A DNA stretch of 64,000 bases from Mucilaginibacter sp. GTDB lineage: Bacteria; Bacteroidota; Bacteroidia; Sphingobacteriales; Sphingobacteriaceae. The stretch spans positions 1-64,000 of the forward strand of contig JAQBOV010000005.1 in the NCBI GenBank assembly GCA_028287895.1, in the 5' to 3' direction. How positions within the stretch are numbered: the first letter of the stretch is position 1; each line of letters starts with the position of its first letter. This document shows, piece by piece, positions 36,612 to 56,800 of the stretch. The notes under the pieces are model-generated. The model made no database searches, was not told the origin of the DNA, and saw only the letters and a list, made by a program, of their open reading frames with translations. The position numbers were made by a program, and so were the translations under genes.

Positions 36612-37991
36612 TTAGCAGATGCCCGACATCGTTTCCAAAATATCTTTTATCAGGATTTCCGCTAAATTTTTGCTTTTTGCTTCAGCATAAATCCGTATAA
36701 TGGGTTCAGTATTTGAACGCCGTAAATGAACCCAGCCTTCAGGGTAGTCAATTTTTAAACCATCGATCATACTTTGAGGCTTGTCCGCGTGAACGTTCCG
36801 AAGCTTGTCGATAATGGTATCGATACTTGCGCCTTGGCCAAGCGTTAGTTTATTTTTAGAGATAAAGTAATTGGGATAGGTACGACGCAAGGCTGATGCC
36901 GGCTTGTCAAATTTTGCCAGGTGTGACAGAAACAAAGCAATTCCTACCAATGCGTCTCTGCCGTAGTGCAATTCCGGCAAAATTATCCCGCCATTTCCTT
37001 CTCCGCCAATCAATGCGTTAACGTCCTTCATCTTTTTTACCACGTTCACTTCGCCAACCGCCGAGGCAAAATATTTTGCCCCCGCCTTTTGGGTTACCTC
37101 CTGAAGTGCACGGGTCGATGATAAGTTTGAAACCGTATTGCCCTTTTTGTTTTTTAGCATATAATCAGCAATCGCTACTAATGTATATTCCTCTCCGAAC
37201 ATACTTCCGTCTTCTGATACAAAACACAAACGGTCTACATCCGGGTCTACGGCAATTCCCAGATCGGCCTTTTGGCGGATCACTTCCCTTGAAAGGTCAG
37301 TTAAGTTTTCCGGCAAAGGTTCCGGGTTATGAGCAAATTTTCCGTCTGGTTGGCAATGCAACTGATAAATTATATTTACACCAAGCGCTTTTAACAATTC
37401 GGGCACGAAAACGCCTCCGGTTGAATTAACTGCATCGACTACTATTTTAAAATTTGCCTTTTTAATGGCTGGAAGGTCCACCATTGACAGGTTTACAACC
37501 TGCTCAATATGTTTTTTCAGATAAGTTTCATCATTGGTAACATGGCCAAGCTCAGTTACTTCAGCGAATACAAAATCGCTATTTTCAGCCATTTCCAAAA
37601 CTTTTTTTCCATCCGCGTCGTCAATAAACTCTCCATAACGATTTAAAAGTTTTAAAGCATTCCATTGTTCAGGGTTATGGCTGGCAGTAAGAATAATCCC
37701 CCCGGCAGCCTGCTCAGCAGGCACAGCAATTTCAACAGTCGGGGTGGTCGATAGCCCCAGGTCAATGACATCAATCCCTAAGCCCTGGAGGGTACCGATA
37801 ACAAGGCGGTTTATCATCAAGCCCGACATACGCGCATCGCGGCCGACAACGATTTTTTTGATGCCCGATTTCTGAACTGCCCAGCTCCCAAATGCTGAAG
37901 TGAATTTTACCACATCCAGCGGCGTTAAACCCTCACCCGCATTGCCGCCAATAGTGCCCCTGATTCCTGAAATTGATTTAATAAGTGTCAT
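36612..37991 (-). CDS. glmM: Phosphoglucosamine mutase-type enzyme (GlmM)
   Basis: A 459-residue alpha-D-phosphohexomutase. Catalytic serine loop TASHNP (102-107, Ser104), metal-binding DPDVDR (249-254), GEGNGG-type sugar loop (in ALIGGEGNGGIILPE) and phosphate-binding RRSNTEPIIRIYAEA near the C-terminus are all present. It interconverts hexosamine 1- and 6-phosphates. Most bacteria use GlmM for cell-wall synthesis, but here it is the last gene of an operon with an NahK-like kinase and a NagB-LmbE fusion. This suggests the catabolic reaction GlcNAc-1-P to GlcNAc-6-P. Whether this is the only GlmM in the genome cannot be told from the window. Confidence 0.92.
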   Translation of the reverse strand: MTLIKSISGIRGTIGGNAGEGLTPLDVVKFTSAFGSWAVQKSGIKKIVVGRDARMSGLMINRLVIGTLQGLGIDVIDLGLSTTPTVEIAVPAEQAAGGIILTASHNPEQWNALKLLNRYGEFIDDADGKKVLEMAENSDFVFAEVTELGHVTNDETYLKKHIEQVVNLSMVDLPAIKKANFKIVVDAVNSTGGVFVPELLKALGVNIIYQLHCQPDGKFAHNPEPLPENLTDLSREVIRQKADLGIAVDPDVDRLCFVSEDGSMFGEEYTLVAIADYMLKNKKGNTVSNLSSTRALQEVTQKAGAKYFASAVGEVNVVKKMKDVNALIGGEGNGGIILPELHYGRDALVGIALFLSHLAKFDKPASALRRTYPNYFISKNKLTLGQGASIDTIIDKLRNVHADKPQSMIDGLKIDYPEGWVHLRRSNTEPIIRIYAEAKSKNLAEILIKDILETMSGIC

Positions 37992-38055: not shown

Positions 38056-39102
38056 TTATAAGGTTTGGAGTAATGGATTTTGATGGATATATTGTTCCCA
38101 TTGCCAAGCCGAATACATCATGTGATGTAAATCCAATTCAGCTTTCCAGTTCAATGTATTTTTTGATTTGGTAATGTCTGCCCAAACCTGGGTAATGTCT
38201 CCGCTGCGTTTTGAGCCTACCGTATATTTTAAGGTAACCCCTGTCGCCTTTTGAAAAGCATTGATCATCTCTAACACGGAAGTGCCTTTTCCCGTACCGA
38301 TATTGAATACATCGTAATTTTTTGAAGTTTGGCTCTCCAGCAGTTTGATAGCTTCGACATGGGCCTTGGCCAGATCGACCACATGAATATAATCGCGTAT
38401 ACAGGTTCCGTCAAAGATTTCATAATTATCGCCGTAAATCGTAATTGCGCCCCGCTTTCCTATAGCACTTTGGGTGAAATAGGGAACCAGGTTTTGAGGG
38501 ACCCCTAAAGGCAATTCGCCGATTAGCGCGGATTCATGCGCTCCAACCGGGTTGAAATATCTTAAGGATATCGCCTTGCAGTTCTTACGGGCATCGATCA
38601 CCTCCTGCAAAATTTCTTCGGCGATCTGTTTGGTGTTTCCATAGGGCGATTCGGCCTTTTTTATAGCCGCTTTTTCGGTAACCGGCAATTGATCGGGCTG
38701 CCCGTAAACGGTGCAGGAAGAAGAAAAGACCAGGTTTGTTTTTCTTTCTGAGAATGCCGATAATAAGTGAATGAGTGAATTAAGATTATTACGGTAATAT
38801 TTTAGCGGAGAATGAACGGATTCGCCCACTGACTTAAACGCCGCAAAGTGAATTACACCGGAAATTTCAGGACGGTCGTCCACAAAGTCTTTCACCATAT
38901 CGGCGTTATTAAGATCGATGTTGTGGAAAGATGGAGCTACCCCTGAAATTTTTGTAATCTGATCAACAATAAAAGGTTTTGAATTGGATAAGTTATCAAT
39001 TATTATAACCTTATAACCTTGTGACTGAAGCTCAACAACGGTATGCGAGCCAATATACCCTGTGCCACCTGTTACTAAAATTGTTTTTGAATCTGTTTTC
39101 AT
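38056..39102 (-). CDS. galE: UDP-glucose/UDP-N-acetylglucosamine 4-epimerase (GalE)
   Basis: A 348-residue extended SDR. GxxGxxG motif GGTGYIG (12-18), Tyr154 and Lys158 of the YxxxK catalytic pair in SPYGNTK, the Ser/Thr in VFSSSCTVYG (126-134), and the C-terminal signature RYFNPVGAHESALIGE are as in GalE. It exchanges the 4-OH of UDP-sugars. In this operon the likely substrate includes UDP-GalNAc/UDP-GlcNAc, since the other genes act on amino sugars. It lies between the permease (15 bp) and glmM (64 bp), all co-directional. Confidence 0.93.
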   Translation of the reverse strand: MKTDSKTILVTGGTGYIGSHTVVELQSQGYKVIIIDNLSNSKPFIVDQITKISGVAPSFHNIDLNNADMVKDFVDDRPEISGVIHFAAFKSVGESVHSPLKYYRNNLNSLIHLLSAFSERKTNLVFSSSCTVYGQPDQLPVTEKAAIKKAESPYGNTKQIAEEILQEVIDARKNCKAISLRYFNPVGAHESALIGELPLGVPQNLVPYFTQSAIGKRGAITIYGDNYEIFDGTCIRDYIHVVDLAKAHVEAIKLLESQTSKNYDVFNIGTGKGTSVLEMINAFQKATGVTLKYTVGSKRSGDITQVWADITKSKNTLNWKAELDLHHMMYSAWQWEQYIHQNPLLQTL

Positions 39103-39117
39103 ATATATGATAATCTG

Positions 39118-40359
39118 TTATAAGCGCGACCGGCTTTTAATTTTATGACCTGAAGCTGCGTAATACCCTATAAATACATAGCAGGGTATCAGTATCCAAT
39201 AAGCCTGGTGCGGATTTAAGACGTCTGCAAGCCGCCCGTAAAGCAGGGGGATGATGGCTGCACCTGCTATGGCCATAATCATTAACGAGGATCCTATCTT
39301 GGTGAACCTTCCCAGACCTTGCATAGCTAAGGGCCATATAGCCGGCCACATTAAAGAATTAGCCAGTCCAAGTAAGGCGATAAACAATACGGAGGTATAA
39401 CCATCTGTAAGGAGTGCAGCAAGCGTAAAGATAATACCTAACAGGGCAGACGCTTTTAAAGCCTTTTCCTGGGTAAAGTACCTGGGTATGCAAACTATGC
39501 CGATGATATAGCCGGCAATCATTCCAGATAACGTGCAGGAGGTAAAGAATTTAGCGGTTGATAAGGCAATACCCTGTGAAGCCCCGTAGCTGATAATCGT
39601 ATCGCCCGCCATAACTTCAGCACCCGTATATAGAAACAAGGTCGCTACCCCCATCAGCAGATGGGGGAACTGGAAAATGCTGGTCTTGTCTGAATTAGCA
39701 GCTGCAAGGGATTTATCTTCCTGTTCAGTATTTATTTCGGGTAACTGCGAGAAATAAATAAGTGCGGATAATACCACCAGTATACTCGTGATGATCAAAT
39801 AGGGCACAATCACTCTGGAGGCTAACTCATTCAAAACAATGGCGCGCTGCACACTGTCCAGTCGGGCGATACTTTCTTTTAAACCGTCCGTGTTTTTTAA
39901 TATGATTGCGCCCAGCACGATCGGTGCGATGGCGCCTGCAACTTTATTACAGATACCCATGATACTTATTCGCCGGGCGGCGCTTTCCACCGGGCCCAGG
40001 ATAGTTATATAGGGATTGGATGCTGTTTGTAAAATAGCCAGCCCTGTTCCCTGAATAAACAAGCCTAAAAGGAATAACATATAGGTCCGGCTCATGACCG
40101 CAGGTATAAAAATCAATGCGCCAGCGGCCATCATCATTAACCCAAGGGCCATGCCTTTTTTAAACCCGGTAGCCTTGAGCACCCAGGATGAAGGTATTGC
40201 CATAACCAGGTAGGATATATAAAAGGCAAATGCCACCAGGTACGACTCAAAATTATTGAGCTGGCACGCCAATCGTAAATAAGGGATTAAAACCGAGTTT
40301 AACCAGGTCACAAACCCAAAAACAAAGAATAGTGCCCCAATGATGAAAATTGGATTCAA
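39118..40359 (-). CDS. FHS-type sugar MFS permease (NagP/FucP-like), 5' end displaced by a frameshift
   Basis: A 413-residue, 12-helix MFS protein of the FucP/GluP (FHS) branch (VFGFVTWLNSVLIPYLR, then LQTASNPYITILGPVESAARRI). It probably imports the monosaccharide released by this locus, GlcNAc or GalNAc with H+. The frame here has no ATG; it begins with a TTG and is closed by an in-frame TAG just upstream. An ATG at 40417 opens a frame (MAKVTSGSAAVNHPIEK) that would join this one if one A is removed from the run of seven at 40365-40371, giving IEKTHLNPIFIIG. This looks like an assembly indel or a true frameshift at a homopolymer. Full length would be 432 residues. Confidence 0.85.
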   Translation of the reverse strand: MNPIFIIGALFFVFGFVTWLNSVLIPYLRLACQLNNFESYLVAFAFYISYLVMAIPSSWVLKATGFKKGMALGLMMMAAGALIFIPAVMSRTYMLFLLGLFIQGTGLAILQTASNPYITILGPVESAARRISIMGICNKVAGAIAPIVLGAIILKNTDGLKESIARLDSVQRAIVLNELASRVIVPYLIITSILVVLSALIYFSQLPEINTEQEDKSLAAANSDKTSIFQFPHLLMGVATLFLYTGAEVMAGDTIISYGASQGIALSTAKFFTSCTLSGMIAGYIIGIVCIPRYFTQEKALKASALLGIIFTLAALLTDGYTSVLFIALLGLANSLMWPAIWPLAMQGLGRFTKIGSSLMIMAIAGAAIIPLLYGRLADVLNPHQAYWILIPCYVFIGYYAASGHKIKSRSRL

Positions 40360-40475: not shown

Positions 40476-42419
40476 TTAATAGTTAAATCTGACAAAGGCT
40501 TCGATGGCTTCATACTCGGCGAGCCCTAAAGCATTATATACTTTAGCAGTCTGACGGGTTCTGTCTTCTGCACGAACCCAAAATTCCCTTTCATCATCTC
40601 CCGGAAATACAGCCCGGTCTTTTTGCGATTGATGTTTAAAGATGGCCAATCGCTTACGTTCTACCTCTTTTGGCGATAAAGGAACCGCCATTTGAATTTC
40701 AGCGATCTCAAACTCCTGCCATGCGCCGCGGTATAACCATAACCAGCAATCCTTTACCCATTCCTCCGTTTGTTTTAACCGTTTCAATGCCGCAATAATA
40801 ATATCAAAGCATATCTTATGCGTGCCGTGAGGATCTGCAAAATCTCCGGCCGCAAAAATCTGATGAGGCTTTACCTGCTGTAACAGCCGCATGGTTTGCC
40901 GGATATCATCTTCGTAGGTGAGATCTTTCTGGCTTTTGGCCCGGTCATAAAAGGGCAGGTTCATAAAGTGGATATGTGCATCTTTTACACCCGAAAATCT
41001 CGCCCCGGCGATCGCTTCGCCTTTGCGGATAAGTCCCTTTACCGTTCGGATTTCATGGGTGTCCGGCTGGCCGGGTGTTTTTGTTGCCATGAAGGCTCTC
41101 ATACTCCCATACAGCAGCTTTTGCGCACTAACATCTTGACTGCCAGACCCGGCAAAATCAATAGCGAACTCCACGAAACGCAGCGCGTCATCATCCCAAA
41201 CTGCGGTATTGCCCGATGTCTGGTAGGCCACATGCACCTGATGGCCCTGATCTGCCAAGCGGATAAAAGTGCCCCCCATAGAGATCACATCGTCATCCGG
41301 ATGCGGAGAAAATACAATTACCCGTTTTTTTGCAGGTTCTGCCCGCTCAGGACGTTGACGGTCATCAGCAATTGATTTGCCGCCCGGCCAACCGGTTATA
41401 GTATGCTGGATTTTATTAAAGATGTGAATGTTGATATCGTAAACAGGACCTTTGCCGGTGGCTAACTGGGACATGCCATGGTTATTGTAATCCTCTTCCG
41501 TTAGCTTTAAAATTGGTTTTGCAAGGGTTTGTGAGAGCCAGATCACCGCCTTTTTAGTCAGATCCTCATCCCAGGTACAATCTTTGGCCAGCCAGGGCGT
41601 TTTAAACCGCGTAAGCTCCGCCGCTGCGTCCTGGTCCAGTACGAATTCCACATTTTCACCTAATTGCAGGTAAGTAGCCGGCACATCGGAAGAAATTTCA
41701 CCCTCAATGGCTTTTTGTACAATAGCCGCTTTCTTTGAATTAAAAGCCATTAAAATAATCTTTCGGGCCTTAAAAATAGTGCCAATGCCCATGGTGATAG
41801 CTTTTACCGGCACATTCTGTTTCCCTCCGAAGTCTTTTGCGGCATCACTCCGGGTCAGATCGTCAAGGGTAACCAGCCTGGTGCCGGAATTTGGTGCAGA
41901 TCCCGGTTCGTTAAATCCGATATGCCCGGTACGTCCAATCCCCAGGATTTGAAGATCCAGACCACCCATAGCACTTATTTTTTGCTCATAGTCATGGCAA
42001 AAGGCGCTGATTTCCTGCAAAGCAAGTGTGCCGTCAGGTATATGCACATCTGCCATATTGATATCAATATGATCAAAAAGATGTGCCTTCATATTGGCAG
42101 CATAGCTCTGGCCTGCATTTGGCTTTATCGGATAGTACTCATCCAGATTAAAAGTAACTACATTTCGAAAGCTTAATTCTTCTTCTTTATGCAGTCTAAT
42201 TAATTCATTATAAACTTCAATTGGGCTGGCACCCGTTGCAAATCCTAAAACGGCTTTTTGTCCCTTCTTTTGCCTGGATAGGATAAGGTCCGCTATTTCC
42301 CGTGCTATTTTTTTGGAGGCTATGCTTTGATCTGAGTATACGGTGACCGGCAATTTTTCAAATCGCGTTTCTTGTAAAAAGTTTAGTCTTGTGGTTTTGT
42401 TGAATTTAATATTATTCAT
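40476..42419 (-). CDS. nagB: Glucosamine-6-phosphate deaminase fused to a LmbE/PIG-L deacetylase domain
   Basis: A 647-residue two-domain protein. Residues 1-300 are NagB-like (ATGASPIEVY, then FNLDEYYP with Asp93, equivalent to Asp72 of E. coli NagB; GIGRTGHIGFNEPGS with His166 and Glu171 for His143 and Glu148). Asp141 of E. coli, part of the acid/base set, is Thr164 here, so the mechanism may differ. Residues about 365-600 form a LmbE/PIG-L metal-dependent N-deacetylase (SPHPDDD at 371-377, FADPHGTHK later). One polypeptide could therefore deacetylate an amino-sugar phosphate and then deaminate it to fructose-6-phosphate, replacing separate NagA and NagB. That coupling is an inference. Second gene of the operon. 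Confidence 0.92.
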   Translation of the reverse strand: MNNIKFNKTTRLNFLQETRFEKLPVTVYSDQSIASKKIAREIADLILSRQKKGQKAVLGFATGASPIEVYNELIRLHKEEELSFRNVVTFNLDEYYPIKPNAGQSYAANMKAHLFDHIDINMADVHIPDGTLALQEISAFCHDYEQKISAMGGLDLQILGIGRTGHIGFNEPGSAPNSGTRLVTLDDLTRSDAAKDFGGKQNVPVKAITMGIGTIFKARKIILMAFNSKKAAIVQKAIEGEISSDVPATYLQLGENVEFVLDQDAAAELTRFKTPWLAKDCTWDEDLTKKAVIWLSQTLAKPILKLTEEDYNNHGMSQLATGKGPVYDINIHIFNKIQHTITGWPGGKSIADDRQRPERAEPAKKRVIVFSPHPDDDVISMGGTFIRLADQGHQVHVAYQTSGNTAVWDDDALRFVEFAIDFAGSGSQDVSAQKLLYGSMRAFMATKTPGQPDTHEIRTVKGLIRKGEAIAGARFSGVKDAHIHFMNLPFYDRAKSQKDLTYEDDIRQTMRLLQQVKPHQIFAAGDFADPHGTHKICFDIIIAALKRLKQTEEWVKDCWLWLYRGAWQEFEIAEIQMAVPLSPKEVERKRLAIFKHQSQKDRAVFPGDDEREFWVRAEDRTRQTAKVYNALGLAEYEAIEAFVRFNY

Positions 42420-42492: not shown

Positions 42493-43620
42493 TTATATAT
42501 TCACTTTCAATGATGATGCGACGTTGTTTATGATTTTTTCCAAAACAGGACGATGGTCTTCCAGTTTGCGCAGCAACTGGATCTGGGCCTTTGCCCGCTG
42601 AAGATTGTGACCTTTAAAGTGTATCTTATAATATTTATCGCCTTGTATAAAATCCGTTAAAAAGCGCACCGCCTGCATATACGGTAATAGAAATACGCCA
42701 TAGATAAGGGATTTTATCTCCGCGTCCGTCAAAAACACAATTGTTTCTTTTAAATAGCCTTTCGTATAAGCTTCAAATAAGATCATATTGATGTTTATTT
42801 TTGAAAGGTCCTTTTCATCCTCCGCTGCCGTATTGGTTACCGTTCGCATCGCATCCCCAAAATCATAAGCAACGTAGCCTGGCATTACCGTATCTAAATC
42901 AATAACACATTGTGCCCTGTCGTTCTTGTCTAATAATACGTTGTTAAACTTGGTGTCATTGTGGGTGATGCGTAACGGGAGCTTTCCTGCTTTTCCCCAG
43001 TTCAGGATAGTTCCCATTTCTTCTATTCTTTCGTTAAGAAACATAATTTCAGGAATGCAGTCTTTTACCAGCTCACCGGTATTTTCTTCTACGGTCTGAT
43101 GAAACGTTTTTAACCGGCTTTCAATATTATGAAACTCCGGTATCGTTTCTGAGAGTAAGCTGGAATCCAGGTCAGCCAGCAGCGACTGGAATCGCCCAAA
43201 GGCCTTTCCTCCTTCAAATGCCTGGTGTTCTGTTTCAATGATATCGTAGCTATTGGTTTCTTTCAAATAAATATATAGCCTCCAAAAGCCTCCTTTATCG
43301 TCCAGGTAATAAAATAAATCATCTTTTGTCGGAATCAGCGTAAGCACCTCCAGGGCCGGGTTGGCGCCAGCGATAAGACTTATTTTTTTACGTAAATGCG
43401 TCGTGACTAATTCAATATTGCGGATAAGGCCGGGAATATCCTTAAATACATAATTGTTGATGTGCTGCAATAAATAGTCAGGAAAATTACTATAGCTGTT
43501 CCTGACATAGTAAGTTCCGTTAATGTGTCCGGACCCATATGGGGTAACTTCGGCAATATCCCCTTCAACACAAAATTTTGCTAATATATCAGCATGGGCA
43601 TATGCAATACTTGTTTTCAT
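42493..43620 (-). CDS. NahK-like N-acetylhexosamine 1-kinase (APH family)
   Basis: A 375-residue aminoglycoside-phosphotransferase-fold kinase. The catalytic loop HNDTKFNN (220-227, Asp222) and the Mg-binding DLDTVMPGYVAYDFGD (241-) follow the NahK/desulfatase-associated branch, with the N-terminal G-rich GSGHINGTYY. NahK phosphorylates C1 of GlcNAc and GalNAc. It is the first gene of a five-gene operon for hexosamine metabolism and starts about 150 bp from the palindromic operator. Kinase action on GalNAc, GlcNAc or both is an inference from family and context. Confidence 0.88.
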   Translation of the reverse strand: MKTSIAYAHADILAKFCVEGDIAEVTPYGSGHINGTYYVRNSYSNFPDYLLQHINNYVFKDIPGLIRNIELVTTHLRKKISLIAGANPALEVLTLIPTKDDLFYYLDDKGGFWRLYIYLKETNSYDIIETEHQAFEGGKAFGRFQSLLADLDSSLLSETIPEFHNIESRLKTFHQTVEENTGELVKDCIPEIMFLNERIEEMGTILNWGKAGKLPLRITHNDTKFNNVLLDKNDRAQCVIDLDTVMPGYVAYDFGDAMRTVTNTAAEDEKDLSKININMILFEAYTKGYLKETIVFLTDAEIKSLIYGVFLLPYMQAVRFLTDFIQGDKYYKIHFKGHNLQRAKAQIQLLRKLEDHRPVLEKIINNVASSLKVNI

Positions 43621-44121: not shown

Positions 44122-47100
44122 ATGAACAGAAAACTAACTAAAATTAACCGATGGCTGATCGCACCCTACCTCTGTACCTTACTCTTTACCGGTATTGCCG
44201 TTAGCGAAGTAAAAGCCAATGCTGCCGGTTTGAATTCATGGCACGCAAAAACAGGCCTCGGGTACAGCGCTGCAGATATCGTGGTACTGGGAACTGTAAA
44301 GGATAAACAGGGACCCCTGCCGGGTGTAACCGTTGAATTAATAGGAAATAATAAAATAGTTACCAGCACCGACAATAAAGGTAACTTCAGTATTAAGGTT
44401 CCGCAAAACGGCACCTTACTGTTCAGATCAGTCGGCTATAGGTCCATAAAAATACCGGTCAACGGCAATCGCAGCCTTGAGATTACCTTGGAAGAGGATA
44501 ATACGAGTCTAAATGAAGTTACCGTGGTGGGTTATGGCTCCCAAAAGAAGAGCGATTTAACTGGTTCGATAAGCAGTATTAAAAGCCAGGATATCGCCCT
44601 GCTTCCAACCCAAAGGGTGGATCAGGCAATTCAGGGACGTGCTGCGGGTGTACTGGTGTTAAATACGGACGGCTCCCCTGGTGGTAATACCACCATCCGG
44701 ATAAGGGGGATGAATTCCATTAACGGCGGCAATAATGCCCTTATCGTTATTGATGGCTTGCAGGGGGGTAACCTTACTTCTTTAAACCCGAATGATATAG
44801 AATCTGTTGAAATTTTGAAAGACGCATCTGCTACAGCCATTTATGGCTCCCAAGGCGCAAACGGTGTCGTATTAATTACCACCAAGCAGGGCAAAATAGG
44901 CAAACCGATAATCAGGTATACCTTTGACGGCAGCTTCGCCAGTATTGCCAAGAGGCCGGATCTGTTAAATGCAGCCGACTATGCCCGGGAAACCAATGCG
45001 GTTGCCCTGGCAAAAAATGGAAGCGGAATTAATCCTTTGCCTATTTTTTCAGATGCACAAATCCAGGATTTTCAAAAAAACGGAGGCACCAATTGGCTGA
45101 ATGTTATTTACCGCACCGCATTTACGCAAAATCACCAGTTGTCTGTCAGCGGCGCCTCAGAAAAAGTTAATTACCTGGTTTCCGGGGGGTATTTAGATCA
45201 GCAGGGAATATTACTCAATTCTCAATATAAGCGGTTCTCTCTTCGAACCAATATAAAAGCTGATATGACCAGCTGGGCCGCCTTTGGGCTAAACTGGGCG
45301 GCATCGAAAGAAAACGCCAGCTCACCGCCATTCGGAGGAAGTACTGACTGGCCAAATAACCCTGTAGGTGCCGCAGCAAGGTTCTCGCCTACCATACCGG
45401 TATATGATGCCAACGGGAATTACAGCAAGTCCTCACTCTTTTACGGAAACCCTACGCTTTGGAACCCTTTGGCAAGTGCGGTTGAACCACAGATTGACAA
45501 CGGGACGATTACCAATAACTTAAGTGCGTATTTGGAATTTAAACTGTTGACCGGGTTGACCTTAAGGATATCGGGCGGAGCAAGGATCGCAACACAACAA
45601 GATCTTAGCTACCTCAATTTAAATACATTCACGGGGGCACAGCTCAATGGCTCCGGCGCCATTTTAGATAATCAAAGTGAGTATTACCAGAATTCAAATA
45701 TCCTGACTTACGATAAAACCTTTAAGAAACATCATCTTAATCTTACTGCGGTCGCAGAACAAAAATATGATAAGCTGTTTAGCTCATCAATTAATGCCAG
45801 TGACTTTTTGGTACAGCAAACAGCTATCAATGACCTTTCGGGCGCAGGTATTAAAACAATAGGGTCTTCTTTTAATGACAGGGTTGTTAATTCTTACCTG
45901 GGACGCATCAATTACAGTTATGCTGATAAGTACCTGTTAACGGCAAGTTACCGCGCGGATGGGTCCTCCGTGTTTGGAAAGAATAACAAATGGGGTTATT
46001 TCCCATCTGCATCATTGGCCTGGAGGGCAGTACAAGAAAACTTCATTAAAGACCTGAATATTTTTTCAGATCTGAAAATCCGTGCAAGCTGGGGGATCAC
46101 TGGTAATCAGGGCATCAACCCTTACCAAACCCTGGCCCGGACCAGTTCTGGTGTTTTATACCCCTATGATGGATCTGATGCTGCAAATGTTGGGTTTTAT
46201 TTATCATCGGCAGCAAATCCGAACCTTAAATGGGAGAGCACAGCGCAAACGGATATAGGTTTAGATGCCGGTTTTTTTAACGGAAGATTATCCGTAACTG
46301 CTGATTATTATAAAAAAACGACGACCAACTTACTGATGCCTCGTCAGCTGCCAACCTACACCGGCCTGGGAAGCATTCTGGACAATGTTGGCTCCATGGG
46401 AAACAAAGGGATTGAACTTGCAATTGAAGGCACGCCGCTGGTCGGAAAGTTTCAATGGAATGCTGGATTTAATATCAGTGCAAATAAGACCACCGTCTTA
46501 GATTTGGGTGGTATTGATAAAATTGGATATATATCCGGCGGATCCGGATCGGGCACTAACCTGCCCTTTATGTACTTGGTAAAAGGCCAGGACTTTGGTC
46601 AGATGCTGGGCTGGGGCTATCAAGGTGTGTGGAAGACAAGCCAGGCTGCACAAGCCGCCAGGTATGGGCAATTACCAGGAGATCCCCATTATACTGACGT
46701 CAATAATGATGGAAAAATTAACATCAACGACATGAAGGTGATCGGTAATTCTTTACCAAAGTTCATTTTTGGTTTCAATAACCGGCTGGGTTATAAAAAC
46801 TTCGAGTTCATCTTCCTGATCCAGGGCGTGCAGGGGAATAATATATTCAATGTCTCAAGAATAGCTTTAGAATCCCCCGGTGGCACCAGTGCCGGTTTGT
46901 TAAACCGCTGGACTCCTCAAAATCAAAACTCTTCCATTCCTGCAATTATTGACCAGCGTACCAGAGAGCAGGCCAATTTGGTCAGTACGATTTCCTTGCC
47001 TTCAACTGGTAATAACCGGATATCCCGCTGGATAGAAGACGGGTCCTACGTGCGGTTAAAAAATGTAACATTGGCTTATAATTTCCCTAAAATTTTAACA

Positions 47101-47286
47101 GATAAAATCAAACTGCATAATTTAAAGGTGTATGTAAGCGCTACCAATCTTTTGACGATAACCAAATATTCCGGAAATGATCCTGAGGTAAGTTCCTATA
47201 CCGGGAATGACGCCCAGCTGGGTTCTGATTTTAATAATTATCCGCAATCAAAAATATTTAATATAGGCTTAAACACCTCATTTTAA
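44122..47286 (+). CDS. SusC/RagA-family TonB-linked outer-membrane transporter (amino-sugar locus)
   Basis: A 1054-residue TonB-dependent transporter. After an N-terminal export segment come a carboxypeptidase-like domain (about 55-115, VLGTVKDKQGPLPGVTVELIG and FRSVGYRS), then the plug (LNEVTVVGYGSQKKSDLTGSISS, ALIVIDGLQGG, IESVEILKDASATAIYGSQGANGVVLITTKQGK) and the barrel ending in a terminal Phe (NIGLNTSF). It starts a plus-strand operon with SusD, GH123, a DUF5107-TPR protein and a DUF5009 acetyltransferase. Together with the nearby GH109 this suggests import of GalNAc- or GlcNAc-containing glycans. It carries a long leader of about 260 nt. Confidence 0.95.
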   Translation: MNRKLTKINRWLIAPYLCTLLFTGIAVSEVKANAAGLNSWHAKTGLGYSAADIVVLGTVKDKQGPLPGVTVELIGNNKIVTSTDNKGNFSIKVPQNGTLLFRSVGYRSIKIPVNGNRSLEITLEEDNTSLNEVTVVGYGSQKKSDLTGSISSIKSQDIALLPTQRVDQAIQGRAAGVLVLNTDGSPGGNTTIRIRGMNSINGGNNALIVIDGLQGGNLTSLNPNDIESVEILKDASATAIYGSQGANGVVLITTKQGKIGKPIIRYTFDGSFASIAKRPDLLNAADYARETNAVALAKNGSGINPLPIFSDAQIQDFQKNGGTNWLNVIYRTAFTQNHQLSVSGASEKVNYLVSGGYLDQQGILLNSQYKRFSLRTNIKADMTSWAAFGLNWAASKENASSPPFGGSTDWPNNPVGAAARFSPTIPVYDANGNYSKSSLFYGNPTLWNPLASAVEPQIDNGTITNNLSAYLEFKLLTGLTLRISGGARIATQQDLSYLNLNTFTGAQLNGSGAILDNQSEYYQNSNILTYDKTFKKHHLNLTAVAEQKYDKLFSSSINASDFLVQQTAINDLSGAGIKTIGSSFNDRVVNSYLGRINYSYADKYLLTASYRADGSSVFGKNNKWGYFPSASLAWRAVQENFIKDLNIFSDLKIRASWGITGNQGINPYQTLARTSSGVLYPYDGSDAANVGFYLSSAANPNLKWESTAQTDIGLDAGFFNGRLSVTADYYKKTTTNLLMPRQLPTYTGLGSILDNVGSMGNKGIELAIEGTPLVGKFQWNAGFNISANKTTVLDLGGIDKIGYISGGSGSGTNLPFMYLVKGQDFGQMLGWGYQGVWKTSQAAQAARYGQLPGDPHYTDVNNDGKININDMKVIGNSLPKFIFGFNNRLGYKNFEFIFLIQGVQGNNIFNVSRIALESPGGTSAGLLNRWTPQNQNSSIPAIIDQRTREQANLVSTISLPSTGNNRISRWIEDGSYVRLKNVTLAYNFPKILTDKIKLHNLKVYVSATNLLTITKYSGNDPEVSSYTGNDAQLGSDFNNYPQSKIFNIGLNTSF

Positions 47287-47296
47287 CCGTAACAAC

Positions 47297-48718
47297 ATGA
47301 AAAATCGAAAATTTCAGTTAAAGAAATTAAACTTTTCCCTTATTGTCCTATTGGTCATGATAATGGGATGTAAAAAGTTGGATGAACATCCCAAGAACTT
47401 TGTGACACCCGATAGTTTTTATAAAACGCAAACCCAGATTGAATCCACTTTCGCCTCTTCCATGAACGCTTTATGGACCGCCTGGTCCGCTTATGGATAC
47501 GGCATGGCTGTATTTTCCCATGATGACCAGCTAGCCGGCGGTGATTTAAATATACCCGCAAACTGGGGAAGTAACCTCTGGGCCGCCCATTATAACGCCA
47601 TCATGAACCTTAACCTTTCCATTGCCGCTTTAAATAAGGGCCTGAGTGGCGTGTCAAAAGCCAATACAGATCAATTAATGGGGCAGGCAAAATTTCTTCG
47701 GGCCTATAATTATTTTATGCTGGTAAGAATGTTCGGCGCATTGCCATTAATTACCGAGGAAACCGCGGATCCTTTTACGGCTAAGATTGCCCGCTCGCCG
47801 ATTACGGACATATATAAGCTGATCATCAGTGATTTTACCACCGCTATCGCTACCCTACCTGCCACCTGGCCTGATGCACAGCGGGGAAGGCCGACGATGG
47901 ATGCGGCAAAAGGCTTATTGGCAAAAGTGTACCTGACGATGGCCACATACCCTTTGAATGATGCTAGCTATTATCCAAAGGCTGCAGATCTGGCCGGGCA
48001 GGTCATCCAGGCGGGTACTTATGATTTAGAAACGGACATCAATAAGGTTTTTGCCCTGGATACCAAATACGGGAAAGAAATGATGTTCAGCTTTAATTCC
48101 AATTATGTAGCCATGGCAACAGACCCGCATATCTGGTCGGATATCGACGGCTGGGGGGATGAGTCAGTGGAACCTTTATGGGAACAGACTTTTCCGGTGC
48201 AAGCAAGAAAAGACGCCTATCTGCAAACCCAGGATGCCAATGGCGTAAATTATAAAACCTTAGGGCGCTTACCAGGTATCAAAAAGTATTTATACGATAC
48301 CAAGGCGGATTTTGACGCAGGCAGGTCGGTGGTAAACATACCGATCATTCGTTTTGCTGATGTGTTATTGATTTTTGCAGAAGCGGATAACATGGCCCAT
48401 AGCGGCCCTACACAAGCTGCGATTGATGCTATAAACCGGGTTATTGACCGCGCCAATGGCTATACGGTCAACGCCCAGGATCCGAGGGCAACCTTAGCCC
48501 TGTCGGCTGCAGACTTTGATACCAAGGTGATCGATGAAAGGAACTGGGAACTTTGTTTTGAATATGACCGTTGGTTCGATTTGATCCGCAAGCATATTTT
48601 AAAGGAAAAAAGTATTCCCTCGATCCAGCAAAATTTTTCGGATAACGATTATTTATTTCCTGTTCCTGAAAACGACCTGAGACTAAACCCGCTGTTGACT
48701 CAAAATCCCGGTTATTAA
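47297..48718 (+). CDS. SusD/RagB-family lipoprotein (amino-sugar locus)
   Basis: A 473-residue lipoprotein (VMIMGC, Cys25), 10 bp after SusC. SusD signatures: AAHYNAIMNLNLSIAALNKG, QAKFLRAYNYFMLVRMFGALPLI, then IPIIRFADVLLIFAEADNMA and VIDERNWELCFEYDRWFDLIRKHIL near the C-terminus, ending YLFPVPENDLRLNPLLTQNPGY. It is shorter than the other SusD of the window. It is expected to bind the substrate on the cell surface and act as the lid of the SusC channel. Specificity is inferred from neighbours only. Confidence 0.95.
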   Translation: MKNRKFQLKKLNFSLIVLLVMIMGCKKLDEHPKNFVTPDSFYKTQTQIESTFASSMNALWTAWSAYGYGMAVFSHDDQLAGGDLNIPANWGSNLWAAHYNAIMNLNLSIAALNKGLSGVSKANTDQLMGQAKFLRAYNYFMLVRMFGALPLITEETADPFTAKIARSPITDIYKLIISDFTTAIATLPATWPDAQRGRPTMDAAKGLLAKVYLTMATYPLNDASYYPKAADLAGQVIQAGTYDLETDINKVFALDTKYGKEMMFSFNSNYVAMATDPHIWSDIDGWGDESVEPLWEQTFPVQARKDAYLQTQDANGVNYKTLGRLPGIKKYLYDTKADFDAGRSVVNIPIIRFADVLLIFAEADNMAHSGPTQAAIDAINRVIDRANGYTVNAQDPRATLALSAADFDTKVIDERNWELCFEYDRWFDLIRKHILKEKSIPSIQQNFSDNDYLFPVPENDLRLNPLLTQNPGY

Positions 48719-48747: not shown

Positions 48748-50628
48748 ATGAAAAAACAATCATTTATACCAGTACATTCCTTAAGCAGCTCAAAGCCAGA
48801 CAACGGCAGTGTTGCTGAAAAACTGTGGTCCGCTGCCTTATTATTTACATTTATTTTAATTTGCTTGTTTTTCGCCCCTTGCGCAGATGTATATGGCCAA
48901 ATCGCTAAAACAGGAGCGAATGAAAGTGAGTCGGTTACGGACCGGGCTAACGAAGAGCTCGCCGTTTGGGCGGCCCCTGCCGAACAGAAAATACGTCCCA
49001 CGGACAGGGTGGAAACCGATAACCTGGTTTGGTCAAAACAGGGCAAGAAGATCGCTGTTGCCGGCGCAGGCAATGAGCATGTTCCGTTTCAGGTAGTCAT
49101 TACCGCACCGGTTCCGGCCGGTCATAAGGCTGTTGCTCCCGGTGGATTTTTTATAAAGTGCTCTGAACTTACTTCCAAAGAAGGAAAGACTATTCCGCAA
49201 GCACAAATTAATTTCTATCTCGAACATTACATTATGCTTTACGGCGTATCCGGTACTGTGGGGGCGACGGGTTACTGGCCTGATGCACTGGCGCCGATCA
49301 AGGAACCATTCAGTATGGCTGCGCAGTATGCTGTGGTACGCAACCGCCCGATATGGGTTGATATTGCCGTTCCCTCTTCAACGCCGGGCGGGATATACCA
49401 TGGCACCATAACAGTCACCCAGAATAATAAGCAAGTGGAAACCTTAAATGTGCAGCTGGAGGTTTACCGCTTCTCGCTACCGGAGAAAACCCATATGATC
49501 AGCTATATGAATATCTCCAAAGAATCGCTTGCTCATTTTTATCATATGCCGGCTTCTTCTCCTTACATTGATAAACTTACGCAGACCTATTATGACTTTT
49601 TATACGCCCATAGAATGGAGCCCTGGTTCAATGATCAGCTCCTGCCAAAAATTGAAGTTAAAGGCGAGAAGGTTGTAGTGAAGTTTGACGATGCCAGGTA
49701 TGAGTATTACTTAAATAAACTGCATACCAACCGGGTACTCCTGGATGCTTTCCCATCCGGCTTGAAAAAGGAAAACGGCGGCGTTTTGTTTTCAAACCTA
49801 TTTGACACGCAGATAAAATCTTATTTATCGCAAGTGGCAAAATACTTTGAACTACACGGATGGAAAGACAGGCTTGTATTTAACAGCCCTATTGATGAAC
49901 CTAATACCCGCCAGGACTATGAAGATACACGTCACTGGGCTGTTTTGGTGCACCAAGCAGCTGCCGGTGTTCCGTTTTTGGCAACCGAATCTCCAATACC
50001 GGATAACGTGGACTGGGGTACGCTTCGCGGCTATGTGAACAACTTTTCAATCCACGGAAACGCACTGAATAAGGAGGATGTTAAAAAAGCCATACGCGAA
50101 GAACAGGCTAAGGGGGGCGAAATGACATGGTATATCTCCTGCGACCAGGCCTATCCGCAACCTAATTATTTTATTGATGCACCTGCTCAGGACCCGCTTA
50201 TGGTTCCATGGATTACGGATCAATATCACATGAACGGCATCCTTTACTGGGCAATAAACTTTTGGTCCGAAACACCCAGCCCATGGCTGGATGCAGTTAC
50301 TTTCATATCGGGTTTCTCCTGCAGCGGAGGCTATGTCTTAAACGGAGAGGGTTCTTTGCTTTATCCGGGGGATAACACCAGGCAGTATACCGGTGAACCT
50401 AACGTGGATGGTCCGGTTTCTTCAATCCGCTTTGAACTGCTCCGTAAAGGCATTGAAGACTATGAATATCTTTGGATGTTAAAAAACAGGGGCGATAAAG
50501 AATTTGCTGAATCGCAGGTTAAAAACATGGTTGTCGATGTGAGTTCCTTTTCACGAAATAACGAAACGCTTTATTTAGTCCGGAAAAATATGGCGCGGCG
50601 CTTAGAGCAAACCATAACAAATAAATGA
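48748..50628 (+). CDS. GH123-like glycoside hydrolase (DUF4091), likely beta-N-acetylgalactosaminidase
   Basis: A 626-residue secreted protein with a longer than usual N-terminal tail before the hydrophobic signal (residues 27-50). An N-terminal beta-sandwich (about 65-240) precedes a barrel with LVFNSPIDEPNTRQD, where the adjacent Asp383-Glu384 pair is what GH123 uses for substrate-assisted catalysis on the 2-acetamido group. The end, GIEDYEYLWMLKNRGD, is the DUF4091 signature. Family GH123 includes enzymes acting on beta-GalNAc. It follows SusD by 29 bp in the same operon. The family assignment is good; activity on GalNAc is inferred from family and locus. Confidence 0.85.
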   Translation: MKKQSFIPVHSLSSSKPDNGSVAEKLWSAALLFTFILICLFFAPCADVYGQIAKTGANESESVTDRANEELAVWAAPAEQKIRPTDRVETDNLVWSKQGKKIAVAGAGNEHVPFQVVITAPVPAGHKAVAPGGFFIKCSELTSKEGKTIPQAQINFYLEHYIMLYGVSGTVGATGYWPDALAPIKEPFSMAAQYAVVRNRPIWVDIAVPSSTPGGIYHGTITVTQNNKQVETLNVQLEVYRFSLPEKTHMISYMNISKESLAHFYHMPASSPYIDKLTQTYYDFLYAHRMEPWFNDQLLPKIEVKGEKVVVKFDDARYEYYLNKLHTNRVLLDAFPSGLKKENGGVLFSNLFDTQIKSYLSQVAKYFELHGWKDRLVFNSPIDEPNTRQDYEDTRHWAVLVHQAAAGVPFLATESPIPDNVDWGTLRGYVNNFSIHGNALNKEDVKKAIREEQAKGGEMTWYISCDQAYPQPNYFIDAPAQDPLMVPWITDQYHMNGILYWAINFWSETPSPWLDAVTFISGFSCSGGYVLNGEGSLLYPGDNTRQYTGEPNVDGPVSSIRFELLRKGIEDYEYLWMLKNRGDKEFAESQVKNMVVDVSSFSRNNETLYLVRKNMARRLEQTITNK

Positions 50629-53948: not shown

Positions 53949-55187
53949 ATGACAAACGCACGAACAATTAAGCCTGCTTCATCCCCCACGGACGAGGGGA
54001 TATCATTTATACCGGCAACTGAACGGATTGCATCTGTTGACGTTTATCGCGGGTTGGTTATGCTATTGATGATGGGAGAATTATTGTCATTTAAGCACGT
54101 GTCCCAGGCCTTACCACAAAGTTCATTTTGGCAATTTCTTTATTTTAACCAGGACCATGTACCCTGGTTTGGATGCTCCCTGCATGATATGATCCAACCT
54201 TCTTTTACTTTTTTGGTTGGAGCTGTGCTGCCATATTCTATTTCAAGCAGACTAAACAAAGGGGCTACCTTCACATCGTTAATAAGGCACGCTGTGTTAC
54301 GCTCGATTATTCTCATAGCCCTTGGAATATTTTTGCGGTCCATGTCCGGGAGGCAAACCTATTACACTTTTGAAGATACCCTTACCCAAATTGGCTTAGG
54401 GTATACCTTTTTGTTTATGTTAGGCTTTTGTTCCCAGCGGACACAGTTAGCGGTATTAGCCGTAATTTTGGCAGCTTACTGGCTGGCCTTTGCCTTATAT
54501 CCCCTGCCTGCTGCGGGCTTTGATTATGCCTCAGCAGGGGTAAGTAAATATTGGCAATATAATTTTCAGGGCTTTATGGCGCACTGGAATAAGAATACAA
54601 ACTTCGCCTGGGCGTTTGACCGGTGGTTTTTAAACCTTTTTCCGCGGCAGAGCCCATTTCGTTTTAATGCCGGCGGATATGCTACCCTGAGCTTCATTCC
54701 GACATTGGGTACCATGATCCTGGGATTACTTGCCGGCAACCAATTAAAAGCGCATACAGCAAAGCTTTATAAAGTTAAATTTTTTACAATAACAGGCTTA
54801 AGCTTAGTAGCACTTGGCCTTCTTTTACATTATGGAGGAGTTAATCCAATTGTTAAACGCATCTGGACGCCTGCATGGACGATCTTCAGTGGCGGCATAT
54901 GCTATTTGTTTCTGGCTTTCTTTTACGGTTTAATTGATGTGGCCGGAAGAAAAAGCTGGTCCTTTTTTCTATTGGTAATAGGCAGCAATTCCATTGCGGC
55001 CTATGTAATATCTGACGGAGGAGTCCGGGATTTAATATCCAATTCGCTGCATATTCACCTGGGGCAAACCTATGACCAGCTGTTTGGCGGTGCTTATACC
55101 AGCCTGGTAAACGGCTCCCTGACTTTATTAATCATATGGTTGATTTTGTATTGGTTGTACAAAAAAAGAATTTTTATCAAAATTTAG
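53949..55187 (+). CDS. DUF5009 membrane acetyltransferase (HGSNAT/COG4299-like)
   Basis: A 412-residue polytopic protein with about ten hydrophobic segments. The opening RIASVDVYRGLVMLLMMGELL and HVPWFGCSLHDMIQPSFTFLVGAVLPYSI match the DUF5009/COG4299 family related to heparan-alpha-glucosaminide N-acetyltransferase; the His before PW aligns with the active-site His of HGSNAT. That enzyme acetylates terminal glucosamine across a membrane using acetyl-CoA. Last gene of the SusC operon, 39 bp after the DUF5107 gene. In this locus it may re-acetylate a glucosamine, but this is an inference. Confidence 0.85.
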   Translation: MTNARTIKPASSPTDEGISFIPATERIASVDVYRGLVMLLMMGELLSFKHVSQALPQSSFWQFLYFNQDHVPWFGCSLHDMIQPSFTFLVGAVLPYSISSRLNKGATFTSLIRHAVLRSIILIALGIFLRSMSGRQTYYTFEDTLTQIGLGYTFLFMLGFCSQRTQLAVLAVILAAYWLAFALYPLPAAGFDYASAGVSKYWQYNFQGFMAHWNKNTNFAWAFDRWFLNLFPRQSPFRFNAGGYATLSFIPTLGTMILGLLAGNQLKAHTAKLYKVKFFTITGLSLVALGLLLHYGGVNPIVKRIWTPAWTIFSGGICYLFLAFFYGLIDVAGRKSWSFFLLVIGSNSIAAYVISDGGVRDLISNSLHIHLGQTYDQLFGGAYTSLVNGSLTLLIIWLILYWLYKKRIFIKI

Positions 55188-55450: not shown

Positions 55451-56800
55451 CTAAAAACCACTGTCATCCAGCGCAAACGTCTTTTTCCTGGTTTCCCATT
55501 TACCGCGTGTAAAGTCAGGGAACAATTGCGGTGTGCTGCCTTCTGCAATTGATTTTTCTGATAAAGGAAAAATTACGCTCATGGTAACCGAATCATACAC
55601 ATCAATAGGGGCGGGTGCTTTCTTTTTAACAGCTTCTACAAAGGCATTAAATACGAACCAATCCATACCGCCGTGGCCTGCTCCCAGGGCCTTATCCTGA
55701 TTCTTTTTCCACAAGGGATGGTCGTATTTTTCAAACCAGTCTTTGGCCGCATCCCACTGGTCATTATTTTTGGATTTTCCTTCTATATATACGGATTGGT
55801 TAACATCCATCCATAATCCTTTGGTTCCCTGAACGCGGAACCCCAAAGAATACGGACGCGGCAAATGGGTATCATGACTCAATAAGAGTGATTCCCCATT
55901 TTGGCAGTTGATCATCGTGGTGATCACATCCCCGTTTTTGTAATTAATTTTAGCGCTTGCATTACCCGGTGATAATTCTTCAATATATGCACTCAGCCCC
56001 CTTGCTTTAGAGCTTACTGAAACAAGGTTGGTAAAACGGTTGCCATGATTGATATCAACGTAATGCATCAGGGGACCTGCGCCATGGGTAGGATAAAGGT
56101 CGCCGTTTCTTTCGATATTGAACTGGGTACGCCATTGCGCTTCGCTAAAAGCTTCGGGCCCAAATTTCGTGCCCGGTCCCGGAGGCACCTTGCCATCGTT
56201 AAAGAAAATGCCGCGCAGATCGTGCTGATAGCCCCCTTCCAGATGCACTATTTCTCCAAACACTCCGCTGCGCACCATATTTAAAGCGGCCATCACGTCC
56301 CGCCGGTAGCAAACGTTTTCTAAGGTCATGTAGGGCATTCCGGTCTTTTCAGATGTATTAACAATATCCCAGTGGTCATCCACGCTCAAACCCGCAATCA
56401 CTTCACAGCCTACATACTTCCCCGCTCTCATTGCATCTATCGCCTGCTGTTTATGAAATTGCCATGGCGTAGCTATAATTACGGCATCTATATCCTTCCG
56501 GCTTAGTAATTTTTTATAGGCATCCAGGCTACCGGTGTATTCTGCAGGAAGTTTTTTATTTGCTTCTATAAACTTTTTCCGGCATGCGCTGAGCGATCTT
56601 TCCTGTATATCGCAAACAGCCACTATTTCTACGTCATCCCGTAACAGACCCTCGCCAACGTGGTTCTGCCCTCTCAGGCCCACGCCGATATACCCGAGTC
56701 TGATCTTATCGCTGTTTTTCCCAAAAAGCAAACCGGAAGGTAAAATCGTAAGGCCGGCGGCAGCTATGGTGCTATTTTTTATAAATTCTCTGCGTCGCAT
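55451..56800 (-). CDS. GH109 family alpha-N-acetylgalactosaminidase-like protein
   Basis: A 449-residue Gfo/Idh/MocA-fold protein with a Tat signal (MRRREFIKNS). NAD-binding GYIGVGLRG (36-44), followed by family-specific segments ENVCYRRDVMAALNMVR (161-), EGGYQHDLRGI (188-), LYPTHGAGPL (235-) and AGHGGMDWF. These are the hallmark sequences of GH109 alpha-N-acetylgalactosaminidases (Elizabethkingia NagA type), which cleave alpha-GalNAc using a tightly bound NAD by an oxidation-elimination route. His239 and Tyr236 in YPTHG are the probable catalytic pair. Transcribed toward the SusC operon and preceded by LacI-type operator sites. Confidence 0.92.
   Translation of the reverse strand: MRRREFIKNSTIAAAGLTILPSGLLFGKNSDKIRLGYIGVGLRGQNHVGEGLLRDDVEIVAVCDIQERSLSACRKKFIEANKKLPAEYTGSLDAYKKLLSRKDIDAVIIATPWQFHKQQAIDAMRAGKYVGCEVIAGLSVDDHWDIVNTSEKTGMPYMTLENVCYRRDVMAALNMVRSGVFGEIVHLEGGYQHDLRGIFFNDGKVPPGPGTKFGPEAFSEAQWRTQFNIERNGDLYPTHGAGPLMHYVDINHGNRFTNLVSVSSKARGLSAYIEELSPGNASAKINYKNGDVITTMINCQNGESLLLSHDTHLPRPYSLGFRVQGTKGLWMDVNQSVYIEGKSKNNDQWDAAKDWFEKYDHPLWKKNQDKALGAGHGGMDWFVFNAFVEAVKKKAPAPIDVYDSVTMSVIFPLSEKSIAEGSTPQLFPDFTRGKWETRKKTFALDDSGF

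Follow-up and report, generated by a model that had tools for sequence, protein, structure and literature searches.

Can one cytoplasmic protein both deacetylate and deaminate an amino-sugar phosphate, and so take the place of the deacetylase NagA? The question is raised by a gene in which a NagB-type deaminase is fused to an LmbE/PIG-L-type deacetylase (positions 40476..42419, minus strand) on a 64,000-nucleotide stretch of DNA from Mucilaginibacter sp. (Bacteroidota, Sphingobacteriaceae; assembly GCA_028287895.1, contig JAQBOV010000005.1, positions 1 to 64,000 of the forward strand), the whole of which was analyzed and is here called the window. For the Bacteroidota, the N-acetylglucosamine (GlcNAc) and N-acetylgalactosamine (GalNAc) that chitin, mucin, glycosaminoglycans, and the cell wall provide are an important food source, yet 75 of 100 sampled genomes with the fusion are without NagA. 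The answer favored here, with a probability of about 0.55, is that the fusion is a GlcNAc-6-phosphate (GlcNAc-6-P) deacetylase and glucosamine-6-phosphate (GlcN-6-P) deaminase in one protein, the LmbE half of which is able to replace NagA. Deacetylation and deamination by a single protein is the best reading because so many of these genomes lack NagA, because the neighbors of the fusion are often amino-sugar genes, and because the LmbE half resembles known deacetylases.

The open reading frame begins with ATG and encodes 647 amino acids. In a search of the NCBIfam profiles, residues 8-646 match positions 14-651 of the 653 in NF002557 (PRK02122) with 1009.2 bits, above the curated cut-off of 384 along the whole model. 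Since this match is full-length, and since 100 of 247 sampled Bacteroidota genomes also have matches over the cut-off, the fusion is not a product of chance. The window protein is a plain member of this family, from which it does not differ; the family name, “glucosamine-6-phosphate deaminase-like protein,” gives the LmbE half no function. The fusion type is thus already catalogued in databases, and what may be new is the possible function of the LmbE half. Pfam recognizes two domains, Glucosamine_iso with 65.3 bits (cut-off 27) at residues 32-253 and PIG-L (PF02585) with 60.4 bits (gathering cut-off 28.2) at residues 368-544. An AlphaFold2 model built from 48 sequences, the window protein and related loci, has a mean predicted local distance difference test score of 89.5 and a predicted template modeling score of 0.81. 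The model and a structural match to 2bkv delimit a NagB-fold deaminase half at residues 23-272 (41604..42353, minus strand); PF02585 and structural matches place the LmbE-fold half at residues 363-647 (40479..41333, minus strand). Between them lies a linker (residues 276-360; 41340..41594, minus strand) that includes the motif TITGWPGGK and is predicted to be mostly helical to about residue 338. Its mean column conservation, taken over residues 271-364, is 0.658 in an alignment of 163 distinct full-length fusion proteins (162 relatives and the window protein), which is also the basis of all residue counts below. The initial annotation, which had read this frame as a deaminase fused to a deacetylase, is borne out by the frame itself, Pfam, NF002557, and the model, and the residues D93, T164, H166, and E171 that it singled out stand in the translation under those numbers (GIGR-T-GHIG).

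The LmbE half carries the motifs expected of a zinc-dependent deacetylase of its family. Every position of HPDD (residues 373-376; 41292..41303, minus strand) is invariant in all 163 proteins, and in the DPHGTH motif (residues 529-534; 40818..40835, minus strand) H534 is found in 163 of 163 and H531 in 156. We take HPDD to supply zinc ligands and the base, and H534 to be the likely third zinc ligand; H373, D375, D376, and H534 are thus without exception in the alignment. The nearest LmbE structure to the modeled half is BshB (6p2t; Z 22.6, root-mean-square deviation 2.4, 209 aligned residues), and the Pyrococcus diacetylchitobiose deacetylase 3wl3 is similarly close (Z 22.2, root-mean-square deviation 4.4, 232 aligned). 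BshB acts on an N-acetylglucosamine group, as does diacetylchitobiose deacetylase, and both presumably also carry HPDD. These enzymes (6p2t, 3wl3, and 8bgo) share the fold of the LmbE half at Z values of about 22, but they are only 20-22% identical to it, have other substrates, and are not fused to NagB. The BshB1 and BshB2 models score below their cut-offs (27.4 bits for TIGR04001, cut-off 182.5, and 21.1 bits, cut-off 195.25, respectively), and the NagA model TIGR00221 is absent among the 10 NCBIfam families that match the fusion protein at E<=0.001. In seven fusions, Asn replaces His531 and the other parts of the LmbE motifs are intact; five of these come from Mucilaginibacter records and two from metagenome-assembled genomes named only to Bacteroidetes (L059, L063, L065, L067, L068, L086, and L087). 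The genome of the window contains another PIG-L domain (L002, G000:C29:54856-55260) inside an open frame of 855 residues.

From the established folds, intact motifs, neighborhoods, and phyletic pattern we infer both activities, the substrate, and the order of the steps. The LmbE half, as a zinc N-deacetylase, would convert GlcNAc-6-P to GlcN-6-P in place of the unrelated NagA. The NagB half would then isomerize and deaminate GlcN-6-P to fructose-6-phosphate and ammonia through Asp93, His166, and Glu171, with Thr, Ser, or Asn at the position of Asp141 in Escherichia coli NagB.

The phyletic pattern is the first line of evidence for the deacetylation step. NagA was counted at E<1e-40, which gives 43 genomes, 35 of them above the curated cut-off. 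By this measure 25 of the 100 fusion genomes have NagA, and the 75 that have no such match are spread over 21 of the 23 fusion-bearing families. Genomes with a separate NagB and no fusion number 22 among the matches listed, and 8 of these are without NagA. NagA is therefore missing more often in carriers of the fusion (75/100 vs 8/22), although it is at times absent from genomes of both kinds. The list of separate NagB genes is a lower bound, as matches are listed down to about 252 bits, above the cut-off of 236.9, and the copy in genome G065 was missed; genomes with neither NagA nor a standalone NagB number at most 58, an upper bound. A second collection yielded at least 558 confirmed relatives, the best 80 of which were used. 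These 80 fall into one group with 68-74% identity to the window protein (mostly Sphingobacteriaceae, plus Pontibacter and Christiangramia) and another with 57-60% (Flavobacterium, Hymenobacter, Saprospiraceae, Balneolaceae, and others). A tree built on the C-terminal part groups the window protein with those of G099 and G146.

Naturally separated halves were also sought. In G099, two copies of 371 amino acids and one fragment stop or start at contig ends and are attributed to assembly breaks. A separate NagB-like gene is immediately followed by a separate LmbE gene in G065 and G026 (L136:7502-9176 and L137:9101-10765). The LmbE proteins of these two genomes begin with a signal-peptide-like segment and are very distant from the fused LmbE domain (E 3e-4 to 5e-4), and they were set aside as support.

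Gene neighborhoods provide the second line of evidence. An amino-sugar gene lies within about 8 kb of the fusion at 37 of 72 NagA-less loci, versus 1 of 40 shifted regions of the same contigs; when two panel genes that had been picked from those very loci (AmpG-like and GlcNAc-kinase-like) are dropped, the counts are 26/72 versus 1/40. One fusion locus was taken per genome, for 72 of the 75 NagA-less fusion genomes, with controls from 40 of those genomes, and Fisher p-values for neighbors overstate the contrast because the loci are related. The neighbors at the 72 loci include GH20 (12 loci), AmpG-like (12), ROK (6), NagP-like major facilitator superfamily (MFS) (6), MurQ (5), AnmK (5), and BadF-type, weakly GlcNAc-kinase-like genes (5). 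The AmpG-like and GlcNAc-kinase-like genes score under the cut-offs of their families, and the single MurQ representative scanned exceeds its equivalog cut-off. The product of MurQ is GlcNAc-6-P, so a NagA-less genome with this gene needs a deacetylase. In Pedobacter glucosidilyticus (L048 and L092) the fusion gene occurs twice, the copies being about 8 kb from each other. Each adjoins a gene for an MFS transporter, and one of them is also accompanied by genes for a LacI-type regulator and a NahK-like kinase.

A third line of evidence comes from fusions that have lost the deaminase site. Five full-length members lack D93: G238 and G230 of family f11 (with Y93, V164, and N166) and G215, G207, and G167 of family f37 (with Asn, Ser, or Ala). 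All five retain HPDD and DPHGTH. In a sixth case, G246, the gene lies in two pieces, of which the first has Ala at this position and the second has HPDDD and DPHGTH. As both pieces lie at contig ends, G246 probably represents an assembly break and not a split gene, and the pieces presumably come from one gene. All six genomes are without NagA at E<1e-40, and each keeps a separate NagB whose DEY segment and GH motif are intact. The matched stretch of the separate NagB in G215 contains one TAG; its open frame has 241 amino acids with intact catalytic segments. Of 71 rows, 15 have a listed separate NagB, and 5 of these are degenerate; of the 56 without one, none is (Fisher p 2.3e-4, kinship ignored).

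In contrast to the deacetylase half, the deaminase half drew attention in the initial annotation for a single residue. That account held that Thr164, in place of the catalytic Asp141 of E. coli NagB, might alter the chemistry or the substrate. The closest solved relative of the modeled deaminase half is the NagB of Bacillus subtilis (2bkv; Z 38.3, root-mean-square deviation 1.2, 242 aligned residues within 23-270, 42% identity). Each half of the fusion is thereby matched by solved enzymes along almost all of its length. We take D93, T164, H166, and E171 to correspond to D72, D141, H143, and E148 of the E. coli enzyme. The codons lie on the minus strand at 42141..42143 (D93), 41928..41930 (T164), 41922..41924 (H166), and 41907..41909 (E171). 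In the alignment, 158 of 163 proteins have D93 (five have other letters), 161 have H166, and all 163 have E171, and the window protein keeps these three residues of the catalytic set as well as K230. Asp141 is the part of the NagB set that it does not have. In a HMMER alignment with Vibrio cholerae NagB (5hj5), R163-T164 stand opposite the N-D of NDGH. Position 164 is Thr in 130 fusions, Ser in 24, Asn in 7, and Val in 2, and Asp in none. B. subtilis NagB itself reads GRNGH, with Asn where T164 stands, and its PDB entry (2bkv/2bkx) bears the title “Structure and kinetics of a monomeric glucosamine-6-phosphate deaminase.” Asp141 therefore does not define the NagB family, and the Asn of B. subtilis NagB together with the spread of Thr, Ser, Asn, and Val among the fusions argues against Thr as a sign of new chemistry. 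Judged from these sequences, Thr164 appears to be the common state of a naturally variable position and no mark of altered chemistry. The expectation that Thr would be conserved in the subfamily thus holds in that Thr is common and fails in that it is not strict, which weakens the claim; comparative evidence supports the other part of the annotation, one-protein deacetylation and deamination, and this two-step idea is of greater interest than the Thr residue. Of the seven fusions with Asn164, three (L115, L172, and L180) have a NahK-like kinase nearby and may form a GalNAc-linked subclade. The TIGR00502 nagB equivalog model gives 234.6 bits, marginally below its cut-off of 236.9, which keeps the fusion from being classed as a NagB equivalog, although it may act as NagB does.

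The surroundings of the fusion in the window form an apparent GalNAc locus. Immediately upstream is a NahK-like N-acetylhexosamine 1-kinase of 375 amino acids with an APH domain (42493..43620, minus strand), which resembles the solved N-acetylhexosamine 1-kinase 4wh1 over its full length (E 5.1e-73, residues 12-367); by analogy, it may phosphorylate at O1. Downstream on the same strand are a NagP-like MFS sugar transporter (39118..40359; NagP_SO3503 392 bits, below its cut-off of 625; gluP 310 bits, cut-off 202.55), the UDP-hexose (uridine diphosphate hexose) 4-epimerase GalE (38056..39102; TIGR01179 385 bits, cut-off 262.3), and a phosphoglucosamine-mutase-type (GlmM-type) gene (36612..37991; TIGR03990 513 bits, cut-off 439). 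This mutase is the second copy over the cut-off in the genome, the other being at C31:16956. The kinase, fusion, transporter, GalE, and GlmM-type genes are separated by gaps of 73, 116, 15, and 64 bp and are presumably one operon. Divergent from them, on the plus strand, are SusC (44122-47286) and SusD (47297-48718; the pair spans 44122..48718), both named from reading the translations alone, and a GH123 glycosidase (48748..50628; GH123_cat 75.7 bits, cut-off 23.1), which we take to belong to a family of beta-N-acetylgalactosaminidases. These are followed by a protein of 1043 amino acids (50778-53909) with DUF5107 (440 bits) and then tetratricopeptide repeats, and by a NagX-like membrane protein (53949..55187, plus strand; NagX_SO_3504 117.6 bits, under the cut-off of 480) that has no Pfam match. 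Farther along, on the minus strand, lie a GH109 glycosidase (55451..56800; Glyco_hydro_109_C 272 bits, cut-off 27), whose family includes alpha-N-acetylgalactosaminidases, and a LacI-type regulator (57153..58235; LacI and Peripla_BP_4 over their cut-offs). GH109 has members that release GalNAc, such as BT4243, according to PMC11992087.

This gene set suggests a candidate GalNAc route. Import by SusC/D, release by GH123 and GH109, and NagP-like uptake would supply GalNAc (and GlcNAc) from glycans; NahK-type 1-phosphorylation, followed by GalE and the second phosphomutase, would then lead to the substrate of the fusion. Two orders are candidates: epimerization at the level of the nucleotide sugar followed by GlcNAc-1-phosphate (GlcNAc-1-P), GlcNAc-6-P, and the fusion, or deacetylation of the 1-phosphate followed by the dedicated GlmM and deamination. 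A UDP route based on GalT is unsupported, as the genome of the window, which is 92% complete, has no match to the GalT C-terminal domain GalP_UDP_tr_C; another uridylyltransferase could serve. The genome also has other members of the NagB/6-phosphogluconolactonase family, a second NahK-like gene, and NagA, which together make redundancy likely.

Several observations weigh against replacement of NagA by the fusion. The NagA of the window's own genome scores 319 bits, and NagA is present in all seven sampled fusion genomes of the window's family, that of the window included; it is also present in 14 of the 22 genomes with a separate NagB and no fusion, leaving 8 that dispense with it without having a fusion. 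In Flavobacterium segetis (L101), NagA (8731-9867) lies directly upstream of the fusion (9926-11881) on the same strand, and F. limicola (L120) also has NagA near the fusion, for a total of 2 of 80 named loci. In G068, NagA (C15:546008-547108) is 84 bp from the fusion (C15:544008-545924), again on the same strand. In these three genomes, the fusion may act as a deaminase beside an ordinary NagA. The tree, which covers five of the six D93-less cases, requires two independent losses, and these are only two events; a stricter filter on coverage removed 3 of 75 rows (L192, L196, and L230) from it, and the split gene of G246 is likewise absent. A kinship-aware pair test of deaminase loss against separate NagB was not significant, two loss events being too few. 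The fusion loci of three of the six degenerate genomes (G230, G238, and G246) have no amino-sugar neighbor from the panel, which brings the overall count to 37/75. Position 195 is opposite E. coli R172, which we take to be a phosphate contact. The window's clade mostly has Arg there (45 of 51 members; the window protein has Lys), and the other two fusion groups mostly have Ser (64 of 87 and 21 of 25); this Arg/Ser split may reflect different phosphate binding. The closest experimental work, on Flavobacterium johnsoniae, points the same way: deletion of nagB in the chitin locus (Fjoh_4557) left growth on chitin unaffected, E. coli failed to express the protein, and the deacetylation step was assigned to a separate NagA, Fjoh_3974 (PMC5127042). 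The authors there explain the lack of a phenotype by three more nagB-like genes.

Three other explanations were weighed against a one-protein GlcNAc-6-P pathway. In one, the LmbE half would deacetylate GlcNAc-1-P or GalNAc-1-phosphate (GalNAc-1-P) made by NahK, the second GlmM would convert GlcN-1-phosphate to GlcN-6-P, and the NagB half would finish, so that the fusion acts both before and after the mutase. Known LmbE substrates bear a C1-linked GlcNAc, and GlmM naturally acts on free amines, both of which suit this order; so do the single same-strand run of kinase, fusion, transporter, GalE, and second GlmM-type gene in the window and the resemblance of the kinase to NahK types that are reported to phosphorylate at O1 (PMC11992087). 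Relatives of NahK occur close to the fusion at 4 of the 80 named loci and at 2 of the 72 NagA-less ones. Such neighbors are rare, however, and AnmK, MurQ, or GlcNAc-kinase-like genes, which belong to a 6-phosphate branch, are commoner (10/72 and 17/80), while the GlmM-type copy of the window could be a housekeeping gene. On this balance the 1-phosphate order is possible but unlikely. A broader scheme is speculative to a similar degree: the LmbE half would be the missing NagA of many Bacteroidota and, in the window's lineage, would in addition deacetylate N-acetylhexosamine 1-phosphates, this step and GlcN-6-P deamination flanking a dedicated GlmM, in a route for GalNAc and GlcNAc without NagA or AgaA/AgaS.

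Alternatively, deamination of GlcN-6-P, either free or supplied by NagA, could be the main task of the fusion, with the LmbE half deacetylating some other GlcNAc compound (bacillithiol-like, cell-wall, or other). The NagA genes of F. segetis and G068 that adjoin the fusion, the presence of NagA in a quarter of fusion genomes and throughout those of the window's family, and BshB as the nearest LmbE structure all fit this explanation. It is nevertheless decidedly improbable in view of the 75 NagA-less fusion genomes, the BshB1 and BshB2 scores far under their cut-offs, and the D93-less fusions that retain LmbE motifs in genomes without NagA. That the deaminase half is altered or dead through Thr for Asp141, and serves another substrate or as a regulator, is very improbable. 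T164 itself, the six genomes with degenerate deaminase halves, and the TIGR00502 score just under its cut-off could be read this way; against this, the window protein keeps D93, H166, E171, and K230, the NagB of B. subtilis carries Asn there, and the degenerate members differ from the window protein by the loss of D93.

If the LmbE half does the work of NagA, models of metabolism in the phylum will change and a “deaminase-like” family gains a function; a candidate route would also be at hand for GalNAc-1-P after the GalNAc kinase. The natural fusions that lack the deaminase site but keep the deacetylase motifs make the question open to a direct complementation test. Neither an activity assay of the fusion nor a paper that assigns GlcNAc-6-P deacetylation to its LmbE half was found in the open-licence literature, a scope that mostly excludes subscription papers.

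Compared with known systems, the fusion has the same proposed net reaction as the pathway of NagA, an amidohydrolase, and NagB, from GlcNAc-6-P to fructose-6-phosphate, but it would use an LmbE domain for the NagA step. The monomeric NagB of B. subtilis likewise has no Asp at the 141 position, but it is a single domain with Asn instead of Thr. The hexosamine route of bifidobacteria is the NahK-GalE route. Like that route and the GalNAc kinase polysaccharide utilization locus BT4240-50 of Bacteroides thetaiotaomicron (PMC11992087), the window joins a NahK-like kinase, GH109, and an MFS transporter. Growth of B. thetaiotaomicron on GalNAc needs the NahK-kind kinase BT4240, which, like other NahK-type enzymes, is reported to phosphorylate at O1; “deaminase,” “deacetylase,” and “epimerase” each occur 0 times in the main text of that paper, so no such fusion is named there as the next step after the GalNAc kinase (PMC11992087). 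In F. johnsoniae CI04 (L109), a fusion of this family is flanked by SusC-type and GH20 genes, and a GH18 gene is close by. This layout fits the published surroundings of Fjoh_4557 in the F. johnsoniae chitin utilization locus (ChiUL), in a paper whose main text does not contain the word “deacetylase” (PMC5127042). The ChiUL differs from the GalNAc locus of the window in that it is accompanied by a named NagA and is directed at chitin rather than GalNAc.

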